The notes beneath the pieces were generated by a model. It was given only the letters and a program-made list of their open reading frames with translations, was not told the origin of the DNA and ran no database searches. Made by a program: the position numbers and the translations under genes. Source: a virus. Taken from it: a DNA stretch of 30,062 nucleotides. The DNA lies in IMG/VR virus record IMGVR_UViG_3300042385_000192, positions 1-30,062 of that record. One strand, written 5' to 3'. Shown in pieces: positions 13,345-23,011 of this stretch (the first letter of the stretch is position 1; each line of letters begins with the position of its first letter).

Positions 13345-13380
13345 CAAAAAAATAGCCCCTAGTCGAGACTCTAGAGGCTA
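13345..13380 (-). terminator. Terminator of the early minus-strand operon
   Basis: TAGCC (13353-13357) and CTAG (13359-13362) pair with GGCTA (13376-13380) and CTAG (13371-13374), with one mismatch. On the minus strand the stem is followed by seven T. It lies about 100 bases past the zinc-ribbon gene stop and closes the VRR-NUC/sigma-like/zinc-ribbon operon. Confidence 0.75.
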
Positions 13381-13413
13381 AGGTCAAAAGCTTTCACTTT
13401 CGATTGCTTAACC

Positions 13414-13431
13414 TTGTTCGGTCTCGAACAA
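13414..13431 (-). other. Short RNA hairpin with loop complementary to the terminator loop
   Basis: TTGTTCG (13414-13420) pairs perfectly with CGAACAA (13425-13431). The four-base loop reads AGAC on the minus strand, complementary to GTCT in the eight-base loop of the terminator at 13353-13380. Both hairpins lie in the same minus transcript between a stop codon and the T-tract, so a kissing or antiterminator interaction is possible. Confidence 0.5.
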
Positions 13432-13478
13432 ACAAGGCAAAGCGTTTAATACACCACAAACATAAATTGATTTACTTA

Positions 13479-13892
13479 TCATTCAATATCGTTTCGCAAT
13501 TTCGTTAATAAGTCTTTGATACACGGGGAGCATTTAGTTGGCTCAATGTAATGTCCAGTAGCCTTCGAAGCATAATCATACAACTGTTTCAACTGCTCCT
13601 GCGAAACGTAGTCTGTATGGATGTCTTTCAAGAAAGTTCTTATCTCATCCTTTTCGTCAAGTGTTAGGTTACCTACGGATGTCCATTTGTCAAGTGGACA
13701 CTTTACATTTTTGAAAGCGGTCTTTAAAAACATATTGCAGCCGCACAACTTATGCTTCTTTTTCTTGTAGGTGACCTCGCCACCTAGTAATGGCTTACCA
13801 CACCACAAGACCTTTGCTTCTCGTTTGGAAAATTTACACGCAGAGCAGATAGCCCTACGTTCTTCAATTGTTTTTGCAGGTGCGAACCACAT
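13479..13892 (-). CDS. Cysteine-rich, zinc-ribbon-like protein
   Basis: This is a 137-residue protein with eight cysteines at 16, 19, 31, 50, 52, 65, 121 and 124. The first six form CSAC, WC, CGC and KC groups typical of a zinc-binding fold. The C-terminal half is helical and ends with a CSPC pair. It overlaps the sigma-like gene by 29 bases. The surrounding genes (nuclease, sigma-like) suggest a nucleic-acid or transcription role. I do not recognise the family. Confidence 0.65.
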   Translation of the reverse strand: MWFAPAKTIEERRAICSACKFSKREAKVLWCGKPLLGGEVTYKKKKHKLCGCNMFLKTAFKNVKCPLDKWTSVGNLTLDEKDEIRTFLKDIHTDYVSQEQLKQLYDYASKATGHYIEPTKCSPCIKDLLTKLRNDIE

Positions 13893-14358
13893 ATTTTTTG
13901 ATTTTACATTTGATATAGTTAATGTACTTATACATATACTCTACTGATACCCCTGCGATGTCTGCCCACTCTTTATAGTTGAAGTCATCCTCTAAGTAAG
14001 CTTCAAACAATATTCGCTCGTGGTCTGGAAGGCGAGAGAGCGCAATGTCAACATTCTCTATTCTGATTCTATCGTGCAGGTTGAATGATTCGAACTCTAT
14101 CAATGTCTCACTAAACTCAACAGTATCGAGTTTATACACCTGCCTGAATGCTGATGTCTTGCTATTCCATCCGAGCCACATAGCTCTATTCAGATAACTG
14201 AATAATTGATCGGGAGATAATTCGTCAATGCGATTCATTGAGTGGTCGAGAGCGTACTCTATTGTGAAATGTAGAAGTTCATCACCATCATAACTGTTTT
14301 TAGTCATCCGATTTGCAGATGATTTCAGCCGATTGTATATGATGGTTAGATTATTCAT
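13864..14358 (-). CDS. Sigma-70-like transcription factor
   Basis: This is a 164-residue protein with the layout of a small sigma factor. Residues 22-75 resemble region 2 (DGDELLHFTIEYALDH, then FSYLNRAMWLGW), and residues 103-155 resemble region 4 (DIALSRLPDHERILFEAYLE followed by an HTH, WADIAGVSVEYMYKYI). It overlaps the VRR-NUC gene by ATGA and is thus expressed early in the minus block. The long structural operon further down lacks an obvious consensus promoter, so this protein may direct late transcription there. A non-sigma HTH regulator of similar shape is the main alternative. Confidence 0.65.
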   Translation of the reverse strand: MNNLTIIYNRLKSSANRMTKNSYDGDELLHFTIEYALDHSMNRIDELSPDQLFSYLNRAMWLGWNSKTSAFRQVYKLDTVEFSETLIEFESFNLHDRIRIENVDIALSRLPDHERILFEAYLEDDFNYKEWADIAGVSVEYMYKYINYIKCKIKKYVVRTCKNN

Positions 14359-14729
14359 TTTAAGTACGCATCTATCACTTGAATGGCAGCATCAAAACCT
14401 TTGCATATGTGAGCAGAATAACCTCGTTCAATGAGCCGCTTATTCCATTCTTTCTGCTCAGGACTAGCAACACCTTTCAATGTCTTCAGTTCGATGGCTA
14501 GACCGTTGAAACCGTTACGCGACTCGTAGATGAATAGGTCGGGGAAGCCTTTGACATATCCAGTCTGCTTCATTTTAACCGCTTGTTTGTAGGAAGTCCG
14601 CACACCCCCTGCGGAAGCGCAGTAAAGTGTATTAGGATAAGCATACTTGAGATAGTTGATGACGGCTTTTTGCACCGAATCTTCATACTCAGTCGTTTTT
14701 TTTCCTATGGCTTTCTTATTTAGTATCAA
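14355..14729 (-). CDS. VRR-NUC family nuclease
   Basis: This is a 124-residue stand-alone VRR-NUC domain of the PD-(D/E)xK superfamily. The core motifs are GFPDLFI at 61-67 (Asp64), IELK at 79-82 (Glu80 and Lys82) and SPEQKEW at 89-95. Phages use such nucleases in recombination or resolution. The start is a TTG at 14729; there is an in-frame TAA 18 bases upstream and no ATG before residue 53, so TTG is the best choice. It is the first gene of the minus block, about 85 bases from the putative start of transcription. Confidence 0.8.
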   Translation of the reverse strand: MILNKKAIGKKTTEYEDSVQKAVINYLKYAYPNTLYCASAGGVRTSYKQAVKMKQTGYVKGFPDLFIYESRNGFNGLAIELKTLKGVASPEQKEWNKRLIERGYSAHICKGFDAAIQVIDAYLK

Positions 14730-14778
14730 GCAGTTATACAGATTTTAACTTTTTTTAACAATTCTTTATGCTCAAATA

Positions 14779-14809
14779 TTTGCGCAATCGGAAAGTTGTA
14801 GTACATTTG
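14779..14809 (+). promoter_or_regulatory. Main plus-strand promoter
   Basis: TTTG (14779-14782), 19 bases, then TACATTTG (14802-14809) is an exact match to the Bacteroidota vegetative pattern TTTG-N19-TAnnTTTG. It lies 41 bases upstream of the first plus-strand gene and should drive 14851-22284. Confidence 0.8.
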
Positions 14810-14819
14810 TCAAACAAAA

Positions 14820-14851
14820 CAAAGATACACAAATTAATAAACACACGACAA
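14820..14851 (-). promoter_or_regulatory. Opposing minus-strand promoter
   Basis: On the minus strand TTG (14851-14849), 21 bases, then TATCTTTG (14827-14820) fits TTG-N21-TAnnTTTG. It would drive the VRR-NUC operon with a leader of about 85 bases. Its elements lie downstream of the plus promoter, so the two face each other and share a start area near 14815. Confidence 0.6.
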
Positions 14852-15198
14852 TGAACACACCATTTCAACATTTCATCACACTTGCTCAGAGAGTATTTGA
14901 CAACGTAAGGGTTTATGAGCCAATGAGCAACCCAACTAAAACAATCAGTTGGATAAACACAAAGCAAACATCTAGCAGCCTATCATTTGGTAACTACCCA
15001 TACACCTGCACCATTCATTTAGTGCTATTGGATGGCGGAGACATTAACGCATCTTGCCAGTTCAGTTGTCCGCTTGACTCGGATGCCTCAGAGTTTGACA
15101 GACTATTTGAAGTTTGGGTAGCAGGTGTAGATCAATTTCTTGCATCTGATTCTCCACTATTAATCGATAACCAAATCAAAAAACACCTAAAAAAATGA
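14851..15198 (+). CDS. Hypothetical early protein
   Basis: This is the first gene of the plus block: a 115-residue soluble protein with a helical N-terminus (TPFQHFITLAQRVFDN), central beta strands (SLSFGNYPYTCTIHLVLL) and a helical C-terminus ending in KKHLKK. Its leader is A/C-rich (ACACGACAATG) without a Shine-Dalgarno sequence. As the promoter-proximal gene it may be an early host-takeover protein, but nothing in the sequence shows what it does. Confidence 0.65.
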   Translation: MNTPFQHFITLAQRVFDNVRVYEPMSNPTKTISWINTKQTSSSLSFGNYPYTCTIHLVLLDGGDINASCQFSCPLDSDASEFDRLFEVWVAGVDQFLASDSPLLIDNQIKKHLKK

Positions 15199-15350
15199 AA
15201 CAACGAAAATTTATCTGCGTTCAATCATCGCACACACCAGTTGACAGACTGAACTACAACGAGCAGTCGCAGTACATTGCGGAAGCTACCAAGTCAACAC
15301 GCTACGACAGACTAAAGAAATCAATAATTGAAACACTTAAAGAGATATGA
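15195..15350 (+). CDS. Small early protein
   Basis: This is a 51-residue gene whose ATG overlaps the stop of the previous gene (ATGA) and whose TGA overlaps the start of the next. The protein is hydrophilic and basic (KQRKFICVQSSHTPVDRL at the start, and YDRLKKSIIETLKEI at the end). The precise overlaps on both sides make it a likely real gene. No family is recognised. Confidence 0.6.
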   Translation: MKQRKFICVQSSHTPVDRLNYNEQSQYIAEATKSTRYDRLKKSIIETLKEI

Positions 15351-15589
15351 TAAACGACTTCACACCATACATAAACAAGGCAGAAATGCATGAAATTTCA
15401 AAACGCATCCGCGACATTTTCGCTGAAGCTTATGGAGACGATGTAACCTACTTAAAAGACCAACAGATAGATTACAACGGATGGGTAATTACATTCTCAG
15501 GAACAGTTGAAGACGGTGAAATAGATATCAGCGAACTAACCTTCTCACCTGCTTTCGCAGAACAAGCTAATCAAATTATTTACCTTTAA
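15347..15589 (+). CDS. Hypothetical early protein
   Basis: This is an 80-residue acidic protein. It has an N-terminal amphipathic helix (KAEMHEISKRIRDIFAEAYG) followed by two or three beta strands (GWVITFSGTVEDGEIDISEL). It overlaps the preceding gene by ATGA and is followed ten bases later by the next. No family is recognised. A small acidic early protein could be an inhibitor or DNA mimic, but that is only a thought from composition. Confidence 0.6.
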   Translation: MINDFTPYINKAEMHEISKRIRDIFAEAYGDDVTYLKDQQIDYNGWVITFSGTVEDGEIDISELTFSPAFAEQANQIIYL

Positions 15590-15599
15590 ACACAATACA

Positions 15600-15983
15600 A
15601 TGATAGACACACTATTCGACCTACAACAACAAGTGATAGACGGCAATGCCAACGCACTTGAAGCCTACATCAACCTTAAAAAACTAGAGAAGGCACTTGC
15701 ATCAATCATTACTAACGTGCAGCCCTACGCCTTAGATGAAGCATCCAGATACGGTGAGCGCACGTTTGATAAGTTTGGAGCAAAGGTTGAACTTAAAAAC
15801 GCTGCTTCGCGTTGGGATTATAGCGACTGCATCCAAGTCAATCACTTGTCAGCTAAACTCAAGACAATGCAGGAGTTAGCACAGTTAGCAGTCAACTCAA
15901 CGATGTACGACGAAGATGGTTTGCAGATTGAACCTGCAAAGAAATTAGAAGGAAAATCAACTATATCAGTAACAATTAAATAA
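15600..15983 (+). CDS. Hypothetical protein next to the ssDNA-binding candidate
   Basis: This is a 127-residue, largely helical protein starting DTLFDLQQQVIDGNANALEA. Such a protein is often found just upstream of the ssDNA-binding protein in phage recombination modules; here the probable SSB follows after ten bases. The middle has a GERTFDKFGAKVEL element suggesting beta structure. I do not recognise a family with certainty. Context suggests a role with replication or recombination proteins. Confidence 0.6.
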   Translation: MIDTLFDLQQQVIDGNANALEAYINLKKLEKALASIITNVQPYALDEASRYGERTFDKFGAKVELKNAASRWDYSDCIQVNHLSAKLKTMQELAQLAVNSTMYDEDGLQIEPAKKLEGKSTISVTIK

Positions 15984-15993
15984 ATAAATCAAA

Positions 15994-16653
15994 ATGGCAA
16001 TTTTAGCAGAAAACAATGGCGGTGGAAATTTCGAAAGAGAATTGATCCCTGCAGGACTTCAAGTGGCACGATGCTACTCAATGATTGAAATCGGTTCAGT
16101 CGCAGAAACGTGGGAAGGACAAAGTAAAGTGAGCAAGAAAGTTCGCTTGACCTTTGAACTACCAAACGAACTCAGAACTTTTAAGCCTGAGAACGGTGAG
16201 CAGCCTATGTCTATCAGTAAGACATTCACACTTTCAATGCACGAAAAGGCAGGACTTCGCAAGTTCTTGGAGAACTGGAGAGGAAAGACTTTCACAGAAG
16301 ATGAAGCGAAGCGGTTTGATGTGTCAAACCTTTTGGGTGCGGCAGGTATGATAACTGTCACTCATACCGAAAAGGAAGGCAAGACCTACTCAAACATTGC
16401 AGCGATTGCTCCCGTGATGAAAGGAATGACTTGTCCCGATCAATTCAACGCGAGTAAGATATTGTCTTACGATGACTTCAACTTTGAATTGTTTAATGAA
16501 CTACCAAAGTTCTTACAAGACCAAATGGCTGCTACTCCAGAGTATGGTAAGATTCAGGCAGAACTTGCTGCTAAGTCAAGAACAGTTCAACCTATTCAAC
16601 CTCCAGAATTAAGACCTAATGACGTTGAGGATTTTGAAAACTTACCGTTTTAA
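15994..16653 (+). CDS. Probable ssDNA-binding / OB-fold recombination protein
   Basis: This is a 219-residue protein. The region AGLQVARCYSMIEIGS, KKVRLTFELPNE, and then LRKFLENWRGKTFTEDEA and LLGAAGMITVTHTEKEGK matches a widespread phage family thought to have an OB fold and found beside recombinases and helicases. The C-terminal tail is acidic and ends EDFENLPF, the acidic plus aromatic tip that SSB-like proteins use to recruit partners. No recombinase is adjacent; the next gene is an HNH endonuclease that may have inserted here. Its final four codons (LPF stop) are duplicated just downstream. Function is by family resemblance. Confidence 0.62.
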   Translation: MAILAENNGGGNFERELIPAGLQVARCYSMIEIGSVAETWEGQSKVSKKVRLTFELPNELRTFKPENGEQPMSISKTFTLSMHEKAGLRKFLENWRGKTFTEDEAKRFDVSNLLGAAGMITVTHTEKEGKTYSNIAAIAPVMKGMTCPDQFNASKILSYDDFNFELFNELPKFLQDQMAATPEYGKIQAELAAKSRTVQPIQPPELRPNDVEDFENLPF

Positions 16654-16665
16654 CTTCCGTTTTAA
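16645..16665 (+). repeat. Duplicated end of the SSB-like gene (CCGTTTTAA x2)
   Basis: CCGTTTTAA occurs at 16645-16653 and 16657-16665, a 12-base period. The first copy encodes the gene's final PF-stop; the second, with CTT before it, would encode the same LPF-stop again. It may be a scar of insertion of the HNH gene, or an operator over its promoter. Confidence 0.6.
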
Positions 16666-16669
16666 TTCA

Positions 16670-16677
16670 TATCTTTG
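16670..16677 (+). promoter_or_regulatory. -7 box of the HNH endonuclease promoter (TATCTTTG)
   Basis: TATCTTTG is an exact TAnnTTTG match, 21 bases before the HNH start. The -33 element is weak (T-rich, no TTTG at 19 bases). The HNH gene appears to carry its own promoter within the early operon, as is common for homing genes. Confidence 0.55.
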
Positions 16678-16698
16678 TAGGATAAATACTTACCATAT

Positions 16699-17220
16699 AT
16701 GAAAAACTGTTTTAAGTGTAAAGAAGAAAAACCTTTAGATAAGTTCTACAAGCATCCTAATATGGGTGACGGCAGACTAAACAAGTGCATTGATTGTTGC
16801 GTCAAAGAATCAATAGAAAGAACAAATAAATTAAGACTTGACCCAGAATGGTTGGAAAAAGAAAGACAACGTGGAAGGGAAAAGTATTATCGTTTAAATT
16901 ATCGAAATAATAAAGTTGATTCGTTAAGTAAAAAAGCAGCTATGAAAAAGTACAATGAAAAGTTCCCTGAAAAGGAAGCGTGTAGAAAGTTATCATCTAA
17001 TCTTAAAGCGCCTAAAGGAATGCATAAACATCATTGGTCATACAACATTGAACACGCAAAAGATGTTGTTTTATTAGCACCTGCTGACCACGCAAAAGCA
17101 CATCGTTTTATTGTTTACGACCAAGAACAAATGATGTATCGCAGGATAGATAATATGGAACTTCTTTATTCTAAAGACGCTCACGTAAATTACATAAATG
17201 AAATAATAAACAAGTGCTAA
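16699..17220 (+). CDS. HNH homing-type endonuclease
   Basis: This is a 173-residue protein. The N-terminus has a zinc-finger-like group CFKCKEEKPLDKFY with Cys4, Cys7, Cys30 and Cys33. A charged helical linker follows, and then the HNH core: HKHHWSYN at 109-116 and LLAPADHAKAH at 125-135, with His111/His112, His131 and His135 as likely catalytic or metal ligands. It interrupts the early block between the SSB-like gene and the HTH gene. Its own -7 promoter box and a duplicated flanking sequence support a selfish insertion. Codon use looks more AT-rich than its neighbours by eye. Confidence 0.8.
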   Translation: MKNCFKCKEEKPLDKFYKHPNMGDGRLNKCIDCCVKESIERTNKLRLDPEWLEKERQRGREKYYRLNYRNNKVDSLSKKAAMKKYNEKFPEKEACRKLSSNLKAPKGMHKHHWSYNIEHAKDVVLLAPADHAKAHRFIVYDQEQMMYRRIDNMELLYSKDAHVNYINEIINKC

Positions 17221-17471
17221 AAACCCAACACCATTCTAAGTTTAGGGTGTTTGTGAAGCAAAACTTTAAGAGCGTGTCGAACTTCGGCACGTTTCTTAAA
17301 GTTTGCCGAAACACCGCCACGCACTACGCGAACCAACCCCAACAGATGTCAGCACTTCAGATAATGAAAGTCGCTGCTCACACTGGCACTAACATTAACG
17401 AACTAATACAATTAATTGAAAATGAGTATAGACATAAACACACTCCTTCCAATGGTGAAGGATGCGAATAA
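17214..17471 (+). CDS. Small helix-turn-helix protein
   Basis: This is an 85-residue protein with a Cro/XRE-like HTH across about residues 24-66 (SNFGTFLKVCRNTATHYAN, then MSALQIMKVAAHTGTNINEL). The start is GTG at 17214, overlapping the HNH stop by seven bases; a later GTG at 17247 is also possible. It is the only repressor-like HTH in the plus block and could regulate early transcription, for instance at the opposed promoters 2.4 kb upstream. It overlaps the next gene by 50 bases. No lysogeny genes accompany it. Confidence 0.6.
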   Translation: MLKTQHHSKFRVFVKQNFKSVSNFGTFLKVCRNTATHYANQPQQMSALQIMKVAAHTGTNINELIQLIENEYRHKHTPSNGEGCE

Positions 17472-17901
17472 GCAGGAGTTCATCGAGTTGATTATTGCTC
17501 AGAACAAGTCGCGCGACCATTCTACCGTAGACGATATCGAACTATCCAAGTTCATCTCCGCGATCTGTGAATGGTCACAATGCTACCACTCGATTGGAAT
17601 GAAAGAGATACAAAGTAAGAGTCGATTGCAGGACATCGTGTACATCCGTCACATTGCCCTCTATTGCATTCAAATGGAATTCAGTCAGCGAATGACCTTA
17701 ACAAGATTAGCTGCGATATTTAACCGCCACCACGCATCCGTAATCCACGCGAATAAGCGATGCGCCAACACTTTAGGCTATGACAAAAAGTTAAACCAAA
17801 TGTTAATTAGTCTAAATGAGTATCTCCAGTTGAGAGGTTTCAATACCTTAGCAAACGTTACCACAAAAATAAAAACACTTGATGCGATGAAGCATCACTA
17901 A
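17422..17901 (+). CDS. Stand-alone DnaA domain IV-like DNA-binding protein
   Basis: This is a 159-residue protein starting at ATG 17422 (TTG 17416 is less likely). Residues 65-135 match the C-terminal DNA-binding domain of DnaA. VYIRHIALYCIQMEF is followed by MTLTRLAAIFNRHHASVIHA, in which RHHASVIHA (102-110) mirrors the RDHTTVLHA box-recognition signature. There is no AAA+ ATPase domain. It probably binds DnaA boxes in the phage origin or competes with host DnaA. It sits among replication genes, just before a replisome-organiser-like gene. No cluster of good DnaA boxes was found by eye. Confidence 0.8.
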   Translation: MSIDINTLLPMVKDANKQEFIELIIAQNKSRDHSTVDDIELSKFISAICEWSQCYHSIGMKEIQSKSRLQDIVYIRHIALYCIQMEFSQRMTLTRLAAIFNRHHASVIHANKRCANTLGYDKKLNQMLISLNEYLQLRGFNTLANVTTKIKTLDAMKHH

Positions 17902-17902
17902 T

Positions 17903-18067
17903 ATGAAACAACACACACTGGCAGTACAATGCTGCATCAAAGAGATTCTTGACCGAAAGGAAATCGGAAAGCTTCACCCGTCTGCTGAACTCATTACAGA
18001 GGTCTGCGAAAAATATGGACTAAGTGAAGACTACATTATAAAGATTGGCGAATTTCCAAAACGATGA
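17903..18067 (+). CDS. Small hypothetical protein
   Basis: This is a 54-residue gene starting one base after the DnaA-like stop. It has a helical N-terminal half with a Cys-Cys pair (AVQCCIKEILDRKEIG) and a second helix-turn-helix-like half (SAELITEVCEKYGLSEDYII). The composition and tight spacing make it a credible gene. It may be a small DNA-binding or partner protein for its replication neighbours, though no family is recognised. Confidence 0.55.
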   Translation: MKQHTLAVQCCIKEILDRKEIGKLHPSAELITEVCEKYGLSEDYIIKIGEFPKR

Positions 18068-18104
18068 AGGAATAAAACATCAACAACAATAAAAACACAA
18101 CACA

Positions 18105-18494
18105 ATGACGGCAAAAGACTTCTTTTATAAAAACGCGAAAGCGACTTATCAGGACTGCATCTCACCTGATGAATGCATCAAACTAATGACTGAGTATCAC
18201 AAGCACATAGTTGGTGAGTTCGTTGCCCCATCTATGGAAGATGTGGTTTCATTCTTTCAGTCAAAGACGGGCGGCAGTCAATCGGATGGCATTACATTCG
18301 CATCCAAGTTCATCGCTCACTACGAGTTGAAAGATTGGAAGTACGGCAATAAGAAATTGAAAGACTGGAGACGAGCAGCCGTAGCAGCTTGGGATATGAG
18401 TAAATTTGTAACCACTAAAACAATTAACAATGGATCATTTGGAAAAGGTACAAGTAGCGAGGGGCTTCAATCACTCCTTGACCAATTTAAGTAA
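18105..18494 (+). CDS. Replisome-organiser-like C-terminal domain protein
   Basis: This is a 129-residue protein. Its central part, ASKFIAHYELKDWKYGNKKL followed by KDWRRAAVAAW, resembles the C-terminal motif of phage replication initiators, where conserved Trp residues help load the helicase or bind ssDNA. The usual N-terminal winged helix is missing, perhaps supplied by the DnaA-like protein encoded just before. The leader is AACACAACACAATG. It overlaps the next gene by 65 bases. Confidence 0.55.
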   Translation: MTAKDFFYKNAKATYQDCISPDECIKLMTEYHKHIVGEFVAPSMEDVVSFFQSKTGGSQSDGITFASKFIAHYELKDWKYGNKKLKDWRRAAVAAWDMSKFVTTKTINNGSFGKGTSSEGLQSLLDQFK

Positions 18495-19212
18495 GGTAGC
18501 AAACGTTGACTTCAGAAAGATAATTGCTGCCAAAGAAGCACCACTAATTGCATTGATTAGTGGTAAGGACTTCGCAGTTGAATACTACGCTCAGCTTGTC
18601 TTTCACGGCATACCGCAGCCTGATAGAATTGAACCTATCCAACAGTTGCACTCTTTTGTTTCTGATAACTTTTCTTGGTGTACAACGGTAGATTTCAAGT
18701 TAGCATTTGAGTTCAACGCAGCGAGTAAGTTGGCGAACAAGTTGACATCATTCAAATCATTTGATGCTACCTATGTCGGTAGTGTCTTGAGTGAATACTA
18801 CCAGCTTCGAATGGACGCTATGAAAAAATGGAATGAGGTAAACGTGAACTATATCGAACCTGCACGACAACTAGAATCAGCTAACGAGTCGCTTAATTGG
18901 TTTAATGATTCGTTAAAAAAGGACATTGAGAACGCGAGGAACGGTAACTTTATGGCAGCTGAATTGATGGGCTTTGTGATGTTGGAGAACTTGTACAAAA
19001 GTGGTCTAGTGACCGACGACTATTGGACGGATGACGAGTGGTTGAGTTTTAAGCAGAGAGCGAAAAGACTTGTTCACGATCAGCAGGAAATCGGCAAGAC
19101 AAAGCTTCAAAGAATATTAGCCAACCCAAGATTAAAAGAGCAGTACACGAATAGTATTGCGCGAGAGATGAAGGTTATGATGTACCTGAATTATTTAACA
19201 AAAAACAAATAG
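18430..19212 (+). CDS. Conserved-looking phage protein of unknown function
   Basis: This is a 260-residue helical protein. ATG 18430 lies 65 bases inside the upstream gene; TTG 18477 would nearly remove the overlap, so the start is uncertain. Segments such as APLIALISGKDFAVEYYAQL and VGSVLSEYYQLRMDAMKKW suggest a helical bundle, with a basic C-terminal end. No nucleotide-binding motif is present. Its place between replication genes and terminase suggests a replication or helicase-loading accessory, but that is contextual only. Confidence 0.6.
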   Translation: MDHLEKVQVARGFNHSLTNLSKVANVDFRKIIAAKEAPLIALISGKDFAVEYYAQLVFHGIPQPDRIEPIQQLHSFVSDNFSWCTTVDFKLAFEFNAASKLANKLTSFKSFDATYVGSVLSEYYQLRMDAMKKWNEVNVNYIEPARQLESANESLNWFNDSLKKDIENARNGNFMAAELMGFVMLENLYKSGLVTDDYWTDDEWLSFKQRAKRLVHDQQEIGKTKLQRILANPRLKEQYTNSIAREMKVMMYLNYLTKNK

Positions 19213-19216
19213 CAAA

Positions 19217-19924
19217 ATGAAAGCAACAGTAATCACCGTCTATGACAATGACGGAAACGAAATCAAGAACGTGTCAACTGAGATAGTTCTCAATGGCGAG
19301 ACTTATGTGAAAAAAGAAAGTCAAGTATCAACTACTAAACGGCATAACCCCGAATCACACTTAATTGGTATGTGGTATAAGTGTTATAGAGGCGATGAAG
19401 ATTTTGGTTTTGTAGAAGGTCTGTGGTACTATTTTTACGAACCCTCTGACAATGACGGTGTTAGTGTGTTGACTGAAAAACACAAGTTAACAACTGGATT
19501 CAAAGACCCGCAAAGATGGTTTGACCTGAGCAACCCTGCTCTAGACACCCAAACCAAACCAATTTGGGAAACGTGCCGTGAGACGATGTGGGGTTATGAT
19601 TCAGATACAAGCATAGTAACTAATTATAGCACTAGCACTAGCACTATGAATCAAGATGTTTCTTTGTACAGATTAAACAAACACCTCAACGCCCTAGCCT
19701 ACCTTAGTGAAGTTGCGCGACGATGCAACGGGGATAGGGTTGTGGATTGGCTAAATGGTGCGCAAGACAAGTTTATTATTGAACGCTATCGAAATAAATT
19801 ACAAACGGCTGAACGCTCTGTCACTTTCGAACAAACAACCTTCATTGACAAAGCAGCCCGTGACCATTCATTCGAAGTGGACAAGCACATTTGGAATGAC
19901 TACTACAACTTGCCAAATGAATAA
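19217..19924 (+). CDS. Hypothetical protein upstream of the large terminase
   Basis: This is a 235-residue protein. The N-terminal ~50 residues form beta strands (ATVITVYDNDGNEIKNVSTE). The middle is rich in Trp and Tyr (GMWYKCYRGDEDFGF, then LWYYFYEP), and the C-terminal half is helical. Residues near 136-142 form an STSTST run encoded by three AGCACT hexamers (19628-19645), a possible length-variable repeat. Small terminases usually precede TerL, but this protein lacks a recognisable HTH and does not resemble that family. Function unknown. Confidence 0.55.
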   Translation: MKATVITVYDNDGNEIKNVSTEIVLNGETYVKKESQVSTTKRHNPESHLIGMWYKCYRGDEDFGFVEGLWYYFYEPSDNDGVSVLTEKHKLTTGFKDPQRWFDLSNPALDTQTKPIWETCRETMWGYDSDTSIVTNYSTSTSTMNQDVSLYRLNKHLNALAYLSEVARRCNGDRVVDWLNGAQDKFIIERYRNKLQTAERSVTFEQTTFIDKAARDHSFEVDKHIWNDYYNLPNE

Positions 19925-19955
19925 CCAGTATAAAATTAATCACTAATTTTACCAA

Positions 19956-21257
19956 ATGTACACACCGTCCTACACTACTCGCCAAGATGAAGCATTGACT
20001 TTGTTATCTCCAAAAGATTTGACAACAGAAACGGTGTTATATGGCGGTAGTGCTGGTGGTGGTAAAACATTTCTTGGGTGTAGTTGGCAGATCAATAGAC
20101 GATTAAAATATGCAAACACCAGAGGATTAATCGGTCGTGCAGAATTAAAGCGACTTAGGCAGTCAACGATGGCTACATTTTGGAATATTGCAAATCAGAT
20201 GGGACTTCGCCCCGGTACGCACTACACCTACAACGGTCAAGACCACGTTATAAAATTCTACAACGGTTCGCAGATAGTCTTGATGGACTTAGGCTTTATG
20301 CCTAGTGACCCTGAATTTAGTAGACTTGGCTCGATTGAAATTACAGATTATTTTGTGGACGAGGTAGCAGAAGTTTCTCAACGAGCAATCGACATTCTAG
20401 ATTCTCGTGTGCGTTACAATCTCATCAACGGTGTTCCGAAAGGATTACTTTCCTGCAACCCAACGAAAGGATGGTTATACGCTGACTACTTCGATGCTGC
20501 ACGTAATGGCACACTGCGAGAAGACAGAGCATTCATCAAGGCACTACCGACAGACAATCCAAATCTCGAACCTGCCTACCTTGAAAAGCTTTCACGCCTT
20601 CCAGAGATAGACCGTAAACGCCTTTTAGATGGCGATTGGGACTACGACGAAAGCAATGACCGTCTATATTATTATGATGACTTACTACGTTGTTTTAGGA
20701 ATGAATTGATAGGCACTACCGCTTACATTACTGCCGACATCGCAGCACTTGGAAACGATAAAACAATCATTGGTCTGTGGAGTGGTATGTCATTGGTCGA
20801 TGTGTTTATGATGGAGCATAAGTATCCAAACGAGGTCGCAGAATTTATCCGTAATTTAGCCAAAGAAAGAAACGTGAAGTTGTCGAATATTGTGGTTGAT
20901 GCTGACGGATTGGGAATTGGTGTAGTTGGGATATTAAAGTGCCAATCATTCAACAATGGTGGTCGTGCGATAGATAGCGAGACCTATATGAACTTGAAGG
21001 CTGAGTGCTACTTTAAAATGGGCGAGTACATCAACGCAAACAAGTTGACTATTGCCGCTGATAAATACAAGACTGAGATTATAAAGCATTTGGAAGTTGT
21101 GAGAATTGCACATATTGATCGTGAGAGAAAGAAACAAGTGACCAGTAAGGAAGAAATCAAAAAAAAACACGGCTTCTCTCCCGACTTCGCAGATATGATG
21201 ATGATGCGTATGTATTTTGAACTGTATCCGAACTATGGCAGGTACGCTATAAGATAG
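19956..21257 (+). CDS. terL: Terminase large subunit (PBSX type)
   Basis: This 433-residue protein is the DNA-packaging motor. Walker A is GGSAGGGKT at 30-38, Walker B is YFVDEVAEV with Asp135-Glu136, and the coupling motif is SCNPT at 166-170. The RNase H-fold nuclease has Asp261 in ITADIAALG, Asp315 in VVDADG, and Asp410/Asp413 in FSPDFADMMM. All key residues are present and the length is normal. It is on the plus strand at the end of the replication block, opposite every structural gene, so it may be made early, or the block may be transcribed throughout infection. The mode of packaging cannot be read directly. Confidence 0.95.
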   Translation: MYTPSYTTRQDEALTLLSPKDLTTETVLYGGSAGGGKTFLGCSWQINRRLKYANTRGLIGRAELKRLRQSTMATFWNIANQMGLRPGTHYTYNGQDHVIKFYNGSQIVLMDLGFMPSDPEFSRLGSIEITDYFVDEVAEVSQRAIDILDSRVRYNLINGVPKGLLSCNPTKGWLYADYFDAARNGTLREDRAFIKALPTDNPNLEPAYLEKLSRLPEIDRKRLLDGDWDYDESNDRLYYYDDLLRCFRNELIGTTAYITADIAALGNDKTIIGLWSGMSLVDVFMMEHKYPNEVAEFIRNLAKERNVKLSNIVVDADGLGIGVVGILKCQSFNNGGRAIDSETYMNLKAECYFKMGEYINANKLTIAADKYKTEIIKHLEVVRIAHIDRERKKQVTSKEEIKKKHGFSPDFADMMMMRMYFELYPNYGRYAIR

Positions 21258-21282
21258 TAATTAATTAAACAAAAAAAACAAA

Positions 21283-22284
21283 ATGATTTTAGACAAAAGT
21301 ATCACGGGAATCCCCACTCAAATGTGGGATGAACTAAAGTATTTCGTTCTTGATGGGCGAAATGTCAACGAACTGAGATTAAACCGTCAGTTGGTAAAAG
21401 AAACTTTGAAAGTTCCTAACCCAAAATGGGCAGGTCGATATCTGACACAGACGAAATATGTTTGGAAGGATGGTTTCTTACCTACTTCAAACTTTGTGTT
21501 TTCACCTAGCTACCTGCTCAACCTTGTGTCAATGTACGTCAATGACTTTGGTTATGTCGTGACCGGTAAGAATGAGAATGGACACTGGCAGTTGTACCGG
21601 TCAGAACTTTCTTGGCAGTTGCCCGATGGGACAACTCACACCGAAAGCGAGAAGTTAATCACGATCGTGATAGATGGAACTGATGTTATGTTTGACGATT
21701 TCGAGAATAAGAATCAATGGTCGTTTGATTGGATTGTGAATGGCAAGAAAACAGTTTTGACCTATGATGTTGGCGAGATTGCTGACATTATGAAAGTGAA
21801 TGAGGACACCGTTCTAGCTTTCCAGAATGACTACTTTACGGGCGAATTTAAAACACCCGACACACACATCACTAACATCTTTCCTGCTTTAGAATGGGAC
21901 GGTAACTTGTTGAAAGGTTCATTCTTTGTCAACGAGACAGAATGGAGCGCGTTCAACTACTCACAACTACGCACCTGCTATGGTACTGCACAAGGAGATT
22001 TCAGAATTACTTGGACATTGTACAATGGATGTGACCGTCCTGCCAACGCTATTGATGCGGATAGTATGGGTAACTTTGGCGAGTGTTGGAAGTCTGCATA
22101 CTTGACAAAAGAAAATGCAGATTCGTTTGTGCTTGATGTCGATTCATTGGCTGACGTTGACTATTCGAAACCTGCACACATCAAGTTCACGATTCACTTT
22201 TTACCGCTTACTGGTAAGGAGTTCCGACTTGAAGCCTATGCTAATTTGAATACAAAGAAAATTAGTTTAACACCTTTCGCTTAA
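21283..22284 (+). CDS. Hypothetical protein after the terminase, last gene of the plus operon
   Basis: This is a 333-residue acidic, aromatic-rich protein, predicted mostly beta after a helical first 60 residues (TGIPTQMWDELKYFVLDGR). There is no signal peptide, membrane segment or catalytic motif that I recognise. The C-terminal half, with SQLRTCYGTAQGDFRITW and KIKFTIHF-like strands, suggests a beta-sandwich. It follows TerL after 25 bases with an A-rich leader and ends seven bases before a strong terminator. An intracellular accessory or a small virion protein are both possible. Confidence 0.6.
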   Translation: MILDKSITGIPTQMWDELKYFVLDGRNVNELRLNRQLVKETLKVPNPKWAGRYLTQTKYVWKDGFLPTSNFVFSPSYLLNLVSMYVNDFGYVVTGKNENGHWQLYRSELSWQLPDGTTHTESEKLITIVIDGTDVMFDDFENKNQWSFDWIVNGKKTVLTYDVGEIADIMKVNEDTVLAFQNDYFTGEFKTPDTHITNIFPALEWDGNLLKGSFFVNETEWSAFNYSQLRTCYGTAQGDFRITWTLYNGCDRPANAIDADSMGNFGECWKSAYLTKENADSFVLDVDSLADVDYSKPAHIKFTIHFLPLTGKEFRLEAYANLNTKKISLTPFA

Positions 22285-22291
22285 ATAATAG

Positions 22292-22324
22292 GTGGGCGTA
22301 ATTAAGTTTGCGCCCACTTTTTTT
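22292..22324 (+). terminator. Strong intrinsic terminator ending the plus operon
   Basis: GTGGGCG (22292-22298) pairs perfectly with CGCCCAC (22311-22317), with a 12-base loop, followed by seven T. It lies immediately after the 333-residue gene and before the spanin-like pair. Confidence 0.88.
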
Positions 22325-22335
22325 AACTTAACATA

Positions 22336-22701
22336 ATGAAACAAATTAACCAGACACACATAGTCATTTTCATCTCAGTAATCCTACTGACTATCTTTTT
22401 CATCTTGCTATCAAATCGAAAGCGTGAAGATTCGTCACCACTTCAAATTGAAATTGAGAAACTCCAAAAGAAAATAGATAAGCAAGATAGAATGATTCAC
22501 GATGCACTTATTGACATCAAAATGATGCGCGATACCGTCTACTTTTACGAATCCAAAAAGCCAATAATCACTAACAATTATTTCAAAAATGAGAAAGTTA
22601 TCCTTACTTCTAACGATAGTATTAATGCTATCATTCGTGAATCAAATCAGCGCGAGTTCGAGCGCAGATACTTTAAGGGTCGATACACTCCAATTAAATA
22701 A
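22336..22701 (+). CDS. Inner-spanin-like protein (N-terminal membrane anchor, coiled coil)
   Basis: This is a 121-residue protein with one N-terminal transmembrane segment (residues 8-25) followed by a basic stop-transfer NRKRE. A heptad-like charged coil comes next (QIEIEKLQKKIDKQDRMIHD), then a polar C-terminus. This is the topology of inner spanins such as Rz, which reach across the periplasm to fuse membranes at the last step of lysis. The next gene starts inside it in another frame (22589-22701), the nested arrangement typical of Rz/Rz1. It follows the plus-operon terminator, so it may depend on readthrough or a late promoter not recognised here. Confidence 0.6.
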   Translation: MKQINQTHIVIFISVILLTIFFILLSNRKREDSSPLQIEIEKLQKKIDKQDRMIHDALIDIKMMRDTVYFYESKKPIITNNYFKNEKVILTSNDSINAIIRESNQREFERRYFKGRYTPIK

Positions 22702-23011
22702 AGACCAAGCATTCAACCTTTGCTACTACTCCCTCGAATATTGGTGGGAGTACGCAAAGCTTCAGGATTCAATTATGATTCAGAAAGATTCAATGCTCAA
22801 GAAGTATGTTGATATCACTGGCATCCAAGCGCAGAAGCAGGACGATATCGAAAGCATCTACAACCTAAAGAAGCAGATTGAGATTGACGAGCAGAACAAG
22901 AAGATGAGTGATGAAATTGATCGTAAAAAGAAATGGCGAAAGCGGACATTTGTCGTGTCTGCAATCGCCATTCTGGAAGGTGTGATAATTTACCTGATAG
23001 TATCAATTTAA
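22589..23011 (+). CDS. Spanin partner candidate with signal peptide and C-terminal membrane segment
   Basis: This 140-residue gene overlaps the previous one by 113 bases in the +1 frame. Residues 1-22 look like a signal peptide (RKLSLLLTIVLMLSFVNQIS) but there is no lipobox cysteine. The middle is a long helical, coiled-coil-like part, and the final ~21 residues are a strong transmembrane segment after KKWRKR. That is unlike an outer spanin, which is lipid-anchored, and unlike a unimolecular spanin, which has a lipobox. It could be a novel envelope-disrupting partner or a membrane protein overlapping by chance. It ends convergently, overlapping the minus-strand 69-residue gene by nine bases. 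Confidence 0.6.
   Translation: MRKLSLLLTIVLMLSFVNQISASSSADTLRVDTLQLNKDQAFNLCYYSLEYWWEYAKLQDSIMIQKDSMLKKYVDITGIQAQKQDDIESIYNLKKQIEIDEQNKKMSDEIDRKKKWRKRTFVVSAIAILEGVIIYLIVSI

Follow-up and report, generated by a model that had tools for sequence, protein, structure and literature searches.

The window, by which we mean the whole stretch of DNA analysed here (30,062 nucleotides), is a 30-kb IMG/VR virus record with two opposed gene blocks. Its genes diverge at a single place (14730-14850) and converge at a single place (about 23000). The plus-strand block (14851-23011) encodes an NGO0469-type replication initiation protein, a DnaA-C-terminal-domain protein, an XRE-like HTH protein and TerL, and all remaining genes lie in the minus-strand block: the nuclease, a sigma-like protein, tape measure, portal, head protease, amidase and holin. 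An initial annotation, made from the letters alone, had placed replication genes and TerL to the right of 14730-14850 and nuclease, sigma and structural genes to the left, and the gene order bears this out. Between the two opposed transcription units of this phage of about 30 kb lies their divergent promoter region, the 121-bp intergene 14730-14850, and the features in and around it are as follows.

13346..13453, minus strand: structured small RNA with kissing loops and a terminator (13380-13353), from the fold and loop complementarity
13457..13464, minus strand: small-RNA promoter TATGTTTG, with TTG at N19, from the sequence
13479..13892, minus strand: L3, third gene of the conserved nuclease-sigma-L3 operon, present in all groups of relatives
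13864..14358, minus strand: small sigma-70-like protein (phrog_1740, E 5e-8; TIGR02937, E 3.7e-8, below the TIGR02937 cut-off)
14355..14729, minus strand: first left-block gene, a VRR-NUC nuclease with a TTG start (PF08774, E 1.5e-8; phrog_824)
14733..14761, minus strand: rival leftward element TTGTTA-N17-TATAAC, adjoining the nuclease start, from the sequence and relatives
14779..14782, plus strand: rightward -33 TTTG (TTG at N18-21 in 13/14 independent upstream clusters)
14802..14809, plus strand: rightward -7 box TACATTTG (TAnnTTTG in 87/89 relatives)
14810..14819, no strand: 10-bp gap between the facing boxes, from the sequence
14820..14827, minus strand: leftward -7 box TATCTTTG of a probable promoter, conserved in groups A-D
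14849..14851, minus strand: leftward -33 TTG of the initial annotation, judged coincidental, inside the ACAATG start of ORF 14851
14851..15198, plus strand: first right-block gene, 115 aa, from the sequence and relatives
15994..16653, plus strand: phage replication initiation protein, NGO0469 family (NF046043, E 6.7e-61)
17214..17471, plus strand: XRE/Cro-CI-like HTH protein (AlphaFold2, Foldseek, profile search)
17416..17901, plus strand: DnaA C-terminal DNA-binding domain protein (PF08299, E 3e-11)
19956..21257, plus strand: terminase large subunit (phrog_979, phrog_2)

The promoter type, together with the TerL genes that come nearest among named records (Flavobacterium phage 11b, 43%, and two Flavobacteriaceae MAGs), points to Bacteroidota, probably Flavobacterium-like, as hosts. 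In the 14.6 kb of phage 11b that we viewed, all genes run in one direction, so there is no comparable divergent region there. A search of genome contigs for related loci returned two distant MAG loci and nothing else, and no usable work on phage promoters in Bacteroidota was found in the literature searched.

In order to follow the region through relatives, we collected 182 loci with the nuclease gene, which gave 108 distinct divergent regions. Group A is window-like; B is represented by L008, C by L010 and L015, E by L118, L122, L126, L127 and L136, and G by L016, L068 and L164. Group D, at about 65% nuclease identity, holds most loci, and in group F the nuclease is not divergent from the right block. 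Changes per box column were counted on a nuclease tree with 89 tips.

At the 3' side of nuclease-sigma-L3, groups A, B, D, E, F and G carry a short RNA that is structured and has a terminator, with C less clear. For the copy in the window, the fold has three hairpins (z = -5.3), and the loop of hairpin 1 is exactly complementary to that of hairpin 3 over 7 nt. Loop-loop pairing in A, B and G joins hairpin 1 to the terminator hairpin over 7-11 nt, without mismatch in 7/7 sequences with differing loops, and at most 5 nt paired when loops were swapped between unlike sequences; the loops covary in relatives L003, L005, L006, L008 and L016. Groups D and E have instead an H-type pseudoknot RNA of about 75 nt ending in a T-run (L009, L035, L051, L118, L172 and others). 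Its 19 pairs were intact in 20 distinct sequences (370/370 cells paired, none broken), 9 of the 19 had changed on both sides in a compensatory manner, and covariation was 0.352 vs 0.180 for shuffled and at most 0.118 for slid alignments. Rfam 15 gave no match for the kissing-loop RNA or the D/E pseudoknot RNA. This structured phage RNA seems to be new, and to exceed the promoter pair in novelty. At 13340-13022 on the minus strand, about 300-350 nt of further non-coding sequence look structured and differ between relatives, with a stretch of this kind at the same place in L003, L006, L008, L010 and L028. The L003 copy looks like a tRNA with one arm enlarged, but ARAGORN makes no call, and Rfam gave no match for the sources searched.

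Across the window, TAnnTTTG is not enriched (38 found vs 32.0 +/- 5.8 expected), nor is TAnnTTTG with TTG at N19-21 (4 found vs 2.8 +/- 1.6 expected), so the case for any promoter has to rest on position and conservation. For the rightward promoter this case is solid. We verified the letters of the plus-strand TTTG-N19-TACATTTG (14779-14809) proposed by the initial annotation, and both its -33 and its -7 element are conserved. On the nuclease tree the two free positions of the plus box changed 18 and 8 times, and its other positions 0-2 times; the variants of the box in the relatives' divergent regions are TATATTTG (60), TAGATTTG (11), TACATTTG (10) and others, and it has decayed to TACTTTCG in two relatives, L037 and L065. 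The right promoter thus has what marks Bacteroidota sigma-A promoters, a -7 TAnnTTTG and a TTG/TTTG near -33, and we regard a real rightward sigma-A promoter for the replication genes as near certain. It would be a strong host-sigma-A promoter with a start at about 14815, driving the replication genes and TerL rightward behind a 36-nt A/C-rich leader.

Behind this conserved leader the gene content shifts abruptly, with 35 unrelated small first-gene families in 89 relatives. In L002, L006, L007 and L008 the homologue of ORF 14851 is separated from the leader by an extra gene, and a AACACACAACAATG-like start context is repeated. The slot is a hypervariable gene site and looks like a swap site for early genes. 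Farther into the right block, an HNH-like ORF (16654-17220; recognized by eye, without a Pfam match) has its own TATCTTTG box at 16670-16677; it was found in only 3 loci and is probably a mobile insertion.

The initial annotation had also proposed a leftward promoter facing the first, TTG-N21-TATCTTTG on the minus strand (14851-14820). The letters are present and the -7 box is conserved, but the -33 TTG is at background. The box reads TATCTTTG or TATATTTG in 89/90 divergent regions of groups A-D (83 and 4, respectively, in the strict count), and shuffled leaders contained such a box in 8%. On the nuclease tree, 7/8 columns showed 0 changes vs 36-38 at offsets -9 and -11, an invariance that owes partly to row selection, L015 being the sole A-D row dropped. 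Among the intergenes on the side of the left block, the minus strand has no TAHHTTTG other than the one at 14820.

It could be argued that only the right promoter is real, and that CAAAGATA with its flanks is an element of the right-block mRNA leader, such as an A-rich translation enhancer or an RNA processing or stability site. The constraint does reach past the box, as A-N-CAAAGATA-NNN-AAA on the plus strand (A at -10; AAA three bases further), the start codon lies 6 nt after the box in 42/89 relatives, and Bacteroidota initiation uses A-rich leaders at -11 to -14 (PMC6847099). Clade E, moreover, keeps CAAAGA without the TA. However, the box is equally invariant in 39 relatives whose start codon is at least 15 nt away (15-25 nt), and among the ORF starts of 32 loci (602 in the right block, 433 in the left), CAAAGATA precedes only the start codon of the first right-block gene (27 matches) and never other genes of the same phages. 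These two observations indicate that the leftward element is specific to the promoter region, and a ribosome site in particular was ruled out in those relatives whose start codon lies farther off. Furthermore, the sole variable column of the box is the degenerate, free position of TAnnTTTG, and the gap to the plus box changes in helical steps. A leader element therefore appears doubtful to us, and a real leftward promoter at TATCTTTG probable.

The -33 element proposed for the left promoter fared differently. TTG at N18-21 occurs in 9/44 independent clusters, with a background of 9-16 further upstream, and it was rejected as a conserved element. Its letters are, on the plus strand, the CAA of ACAATG, the start of ORF 14851. 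As a start context ACAATG is not enriched in the window (6/37 gene starts vs 130/1007 ATGs), so what counts is that it recurs ahead of this one gene in relatives: it precedes the ORF 14851 homologue internally in L002, L006, L007 and L008, where the small gene intervenes. The missing leftward -33 is not fatal, and such an element is probably dispensable, because the small-RNA promoter has TTG at N18-21 in only 2/9 clusters and because the -33 motif is barely visible in the mapped promoters of F. johnsoniae (PMC6847099). By the features of Bacteroidota sigma-A promoters, then, the left promoter has the conserved -7 TAnnTTTG in groups A-D only, and no -33 TTG. Conservation in relatives, which the initial annotation had named as one check on both promoters, was found for the plus -33, the plus -7 and the minus -7, but not for the minus -33.

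The strict facing pair is present in 88/108 distinct divergent regions. Within A-D a facing pair is missing only from L015, with L037 and L065 counted as having a pair in which the plus box has decayed. A plus box kept with the minus box lost, the pattern that the initial annotation held would speak against the pair, occurs in clade E but not in the window's clade or the three nearest groups. Clade E retains the right promoter and the left operon, and the leader with its TA-less CAAAGA is hence without the box; in clade G both boxes are one base off consensus. At the nuclease start of clade E we observed a perfect or near-perfect inverted repeat, ATTTAGA-N5-TCTAAAT (L118, L122, L126, L127, L136), possibly the operator for a different left promoter.

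The left block might also start at the nuclease-adjacent TTGTTA-N17-TATAAC, through the phage's own or another sigma factor, with the facing box in a minor role. In the window this nuclease-start element (14761-14729, minus strand) reads TTGTTAAAAAAAGTTAAAATCTGTATAACTGCTTGATA, and relatives have AAAATAATTTnTAACTnATTGAAAATG, TAACTnnTTGA and flanks. AAAATAATTTnTAACTnATTGAAAATG or its variants are found once per genome and are kept in groups A-D and G, more widely than the minus box. Against this, the element sits at the start codon, so that its transcript would be nearly leaderless, and it may belong to the translation start. A similar element was not seen at other left-block gaps, and no late-promoter motif for a phage sigma was seen there by eye. 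As a sigma-70-like promoter it was rejected, its -35 part being conserved in groups A and B only. We consider a left-block start at this element rather unlikely. The apparent nuclease TTG start codon (14729) is kept in groups A, B and C, and group D has TTGAAAATG there.

We then examined the geometry of the facing pair. In F. johnsoniae, 4-5 nt separate the -7 element from the transcript start (PMC6847099), so the gap of 10 in the window predicts coincident starts, at 14814-14815. Coincidence near 14815, as the initial annotation had it, thus holds for the window as a prediction but is not conserved, since gaps of 10-12 occur in 27/89 relatives. The box-to-box gap is 10 (13 relatives), 11 (3), 12 (11), 20 (1), 21 (60) or 25 (1); 61/89 relatives have one more helical turn (gap 20-21), and in most relatives the predicted starts are 10-12 bp apart. 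Both main leader families, TCAAAC... and TACTC..., occur with the short and the long gap, and the nuclease tree requires 18 changes between gap forms, a number that recombination may inflate. The gap is stepped and the box-to-start-codon distance is not phased, which suggests that the two boxes are linked at the DNA level; the helical phasing is suggestive only, because gap classes may spread by recombination. With predicted starts separated by only 0-1 bp in the window, and by 10-12 bp in most relatives, a polymerase at one of the facing promoters should, from this geometry, exclude the other.

The initial annotation went further and saw here a possible early switch, with the HTH protein and the sigma-like protein as candidates to tip the balance between the two promoters. 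Both proteins are present, their genes are conserved beside the region, and the HTH protein (17214-17471) has an XRE-like predicted fold (AlphaFold2 pLDDT 83; Foldseek top matches C.BclI, HigA and TP901-1 CI/MOR, with probabilities reaching 0.99, although every E exceeds 0.1). However, we saw no sign of their action here. No operator-like repeat was noticed by eye in the intergene, nor any conserved dyad in the facing-promoter region other than the boxes themselves. Neither integrase, excisionase nor a second repressor occurred among about 34 proteins scanned, and a P2-like set of repressor, antirepressor or RDF, and integrase was absent from these proteins, although the window may lack part of the genome. 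A link between the facing pair and HTH gene presence was suggested by a first BLAST and removed by a profile search, in which the HTH and sigma genes appeared in all of the groups examined, also in E and G, which lack the consensus pair. The two genes therefore do not track the pair. The facing arrangement is real and conserved; the decision switch is unsupported, and we consider it highly improbable.

Collectively, our results are best explained by two facing promoters with probable mutual exclusion that is passive and needs no bistable switch, a reading to which we give, from sequence, a probability of about 0.6. The left promoter, a -33-less sigma-A promoter TATCTTTG with a start at about 14815, would read left through the elements of the right promoter into nuclease-sigma-L3 with an 86-nt leader. 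As for relative strength and timing, we infer that the stronger right promoter would dominate early, that exclusion is likely passive, and that left-block transcription would rise once the right promoter weakens or copy number grows; alternatively, the left block would be served later from other promoters by the phage sigma factor. We think it unlikely that the two host-type promoters, centred on a single start base pair or offset from it by a helical turn, form a single polymerase-sized site used in either direction, making replication and the left block strictly alternative per genome copy; were this so, the 10/21-bp helical step would be selected for exclusion. If the leftward start is confirmed, passive exclusion between facing promoters would represent a very compact, repressor-free competition of two phage blocks for one polymerase site. 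A more general lesson is that the Bacteroidota -7 box is strongly constrained and the -33 is not, and that a -33 match can be start-codon context.

In comparison with known systems, the region resembles P2-like phages (186 pR-pL, P2) in having facing promoters at the border of opposed blocks, the leftward one being only probable here, and in both cases the transcripts overlap, so that interference is expected. In the P2-like phages 40-60 bp separate the promoters, and operators lie in that space (PMC7498355), whereas here the predicted starts are the same or some 11 bp from each other, and neither an operator nor, among the proteins scanned, a lysogeny gene was found. As with the bidirectional sigma-70 promoters of Salmonella and E. 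coli, which share a symmetric -10, RNAs would arise from both strands of one short stretch. Starts of those promoters are usually 18 bp apart, their -10 elements overlap and their RNAs diverge (PMC10268837); the -7 boxes here are separate, 10 bp apart and facing, and the RNAs converge, which places the pair outside the shared -10 class with its overlapping -10 and diverging RNAs 7-25 bp apart. The region also resembles Bacteroidota sigma-A promoters, in that both boxes match TAHHTTTG and the right one also has TTG at N19, while the left box differs from them in having no conserved -33.
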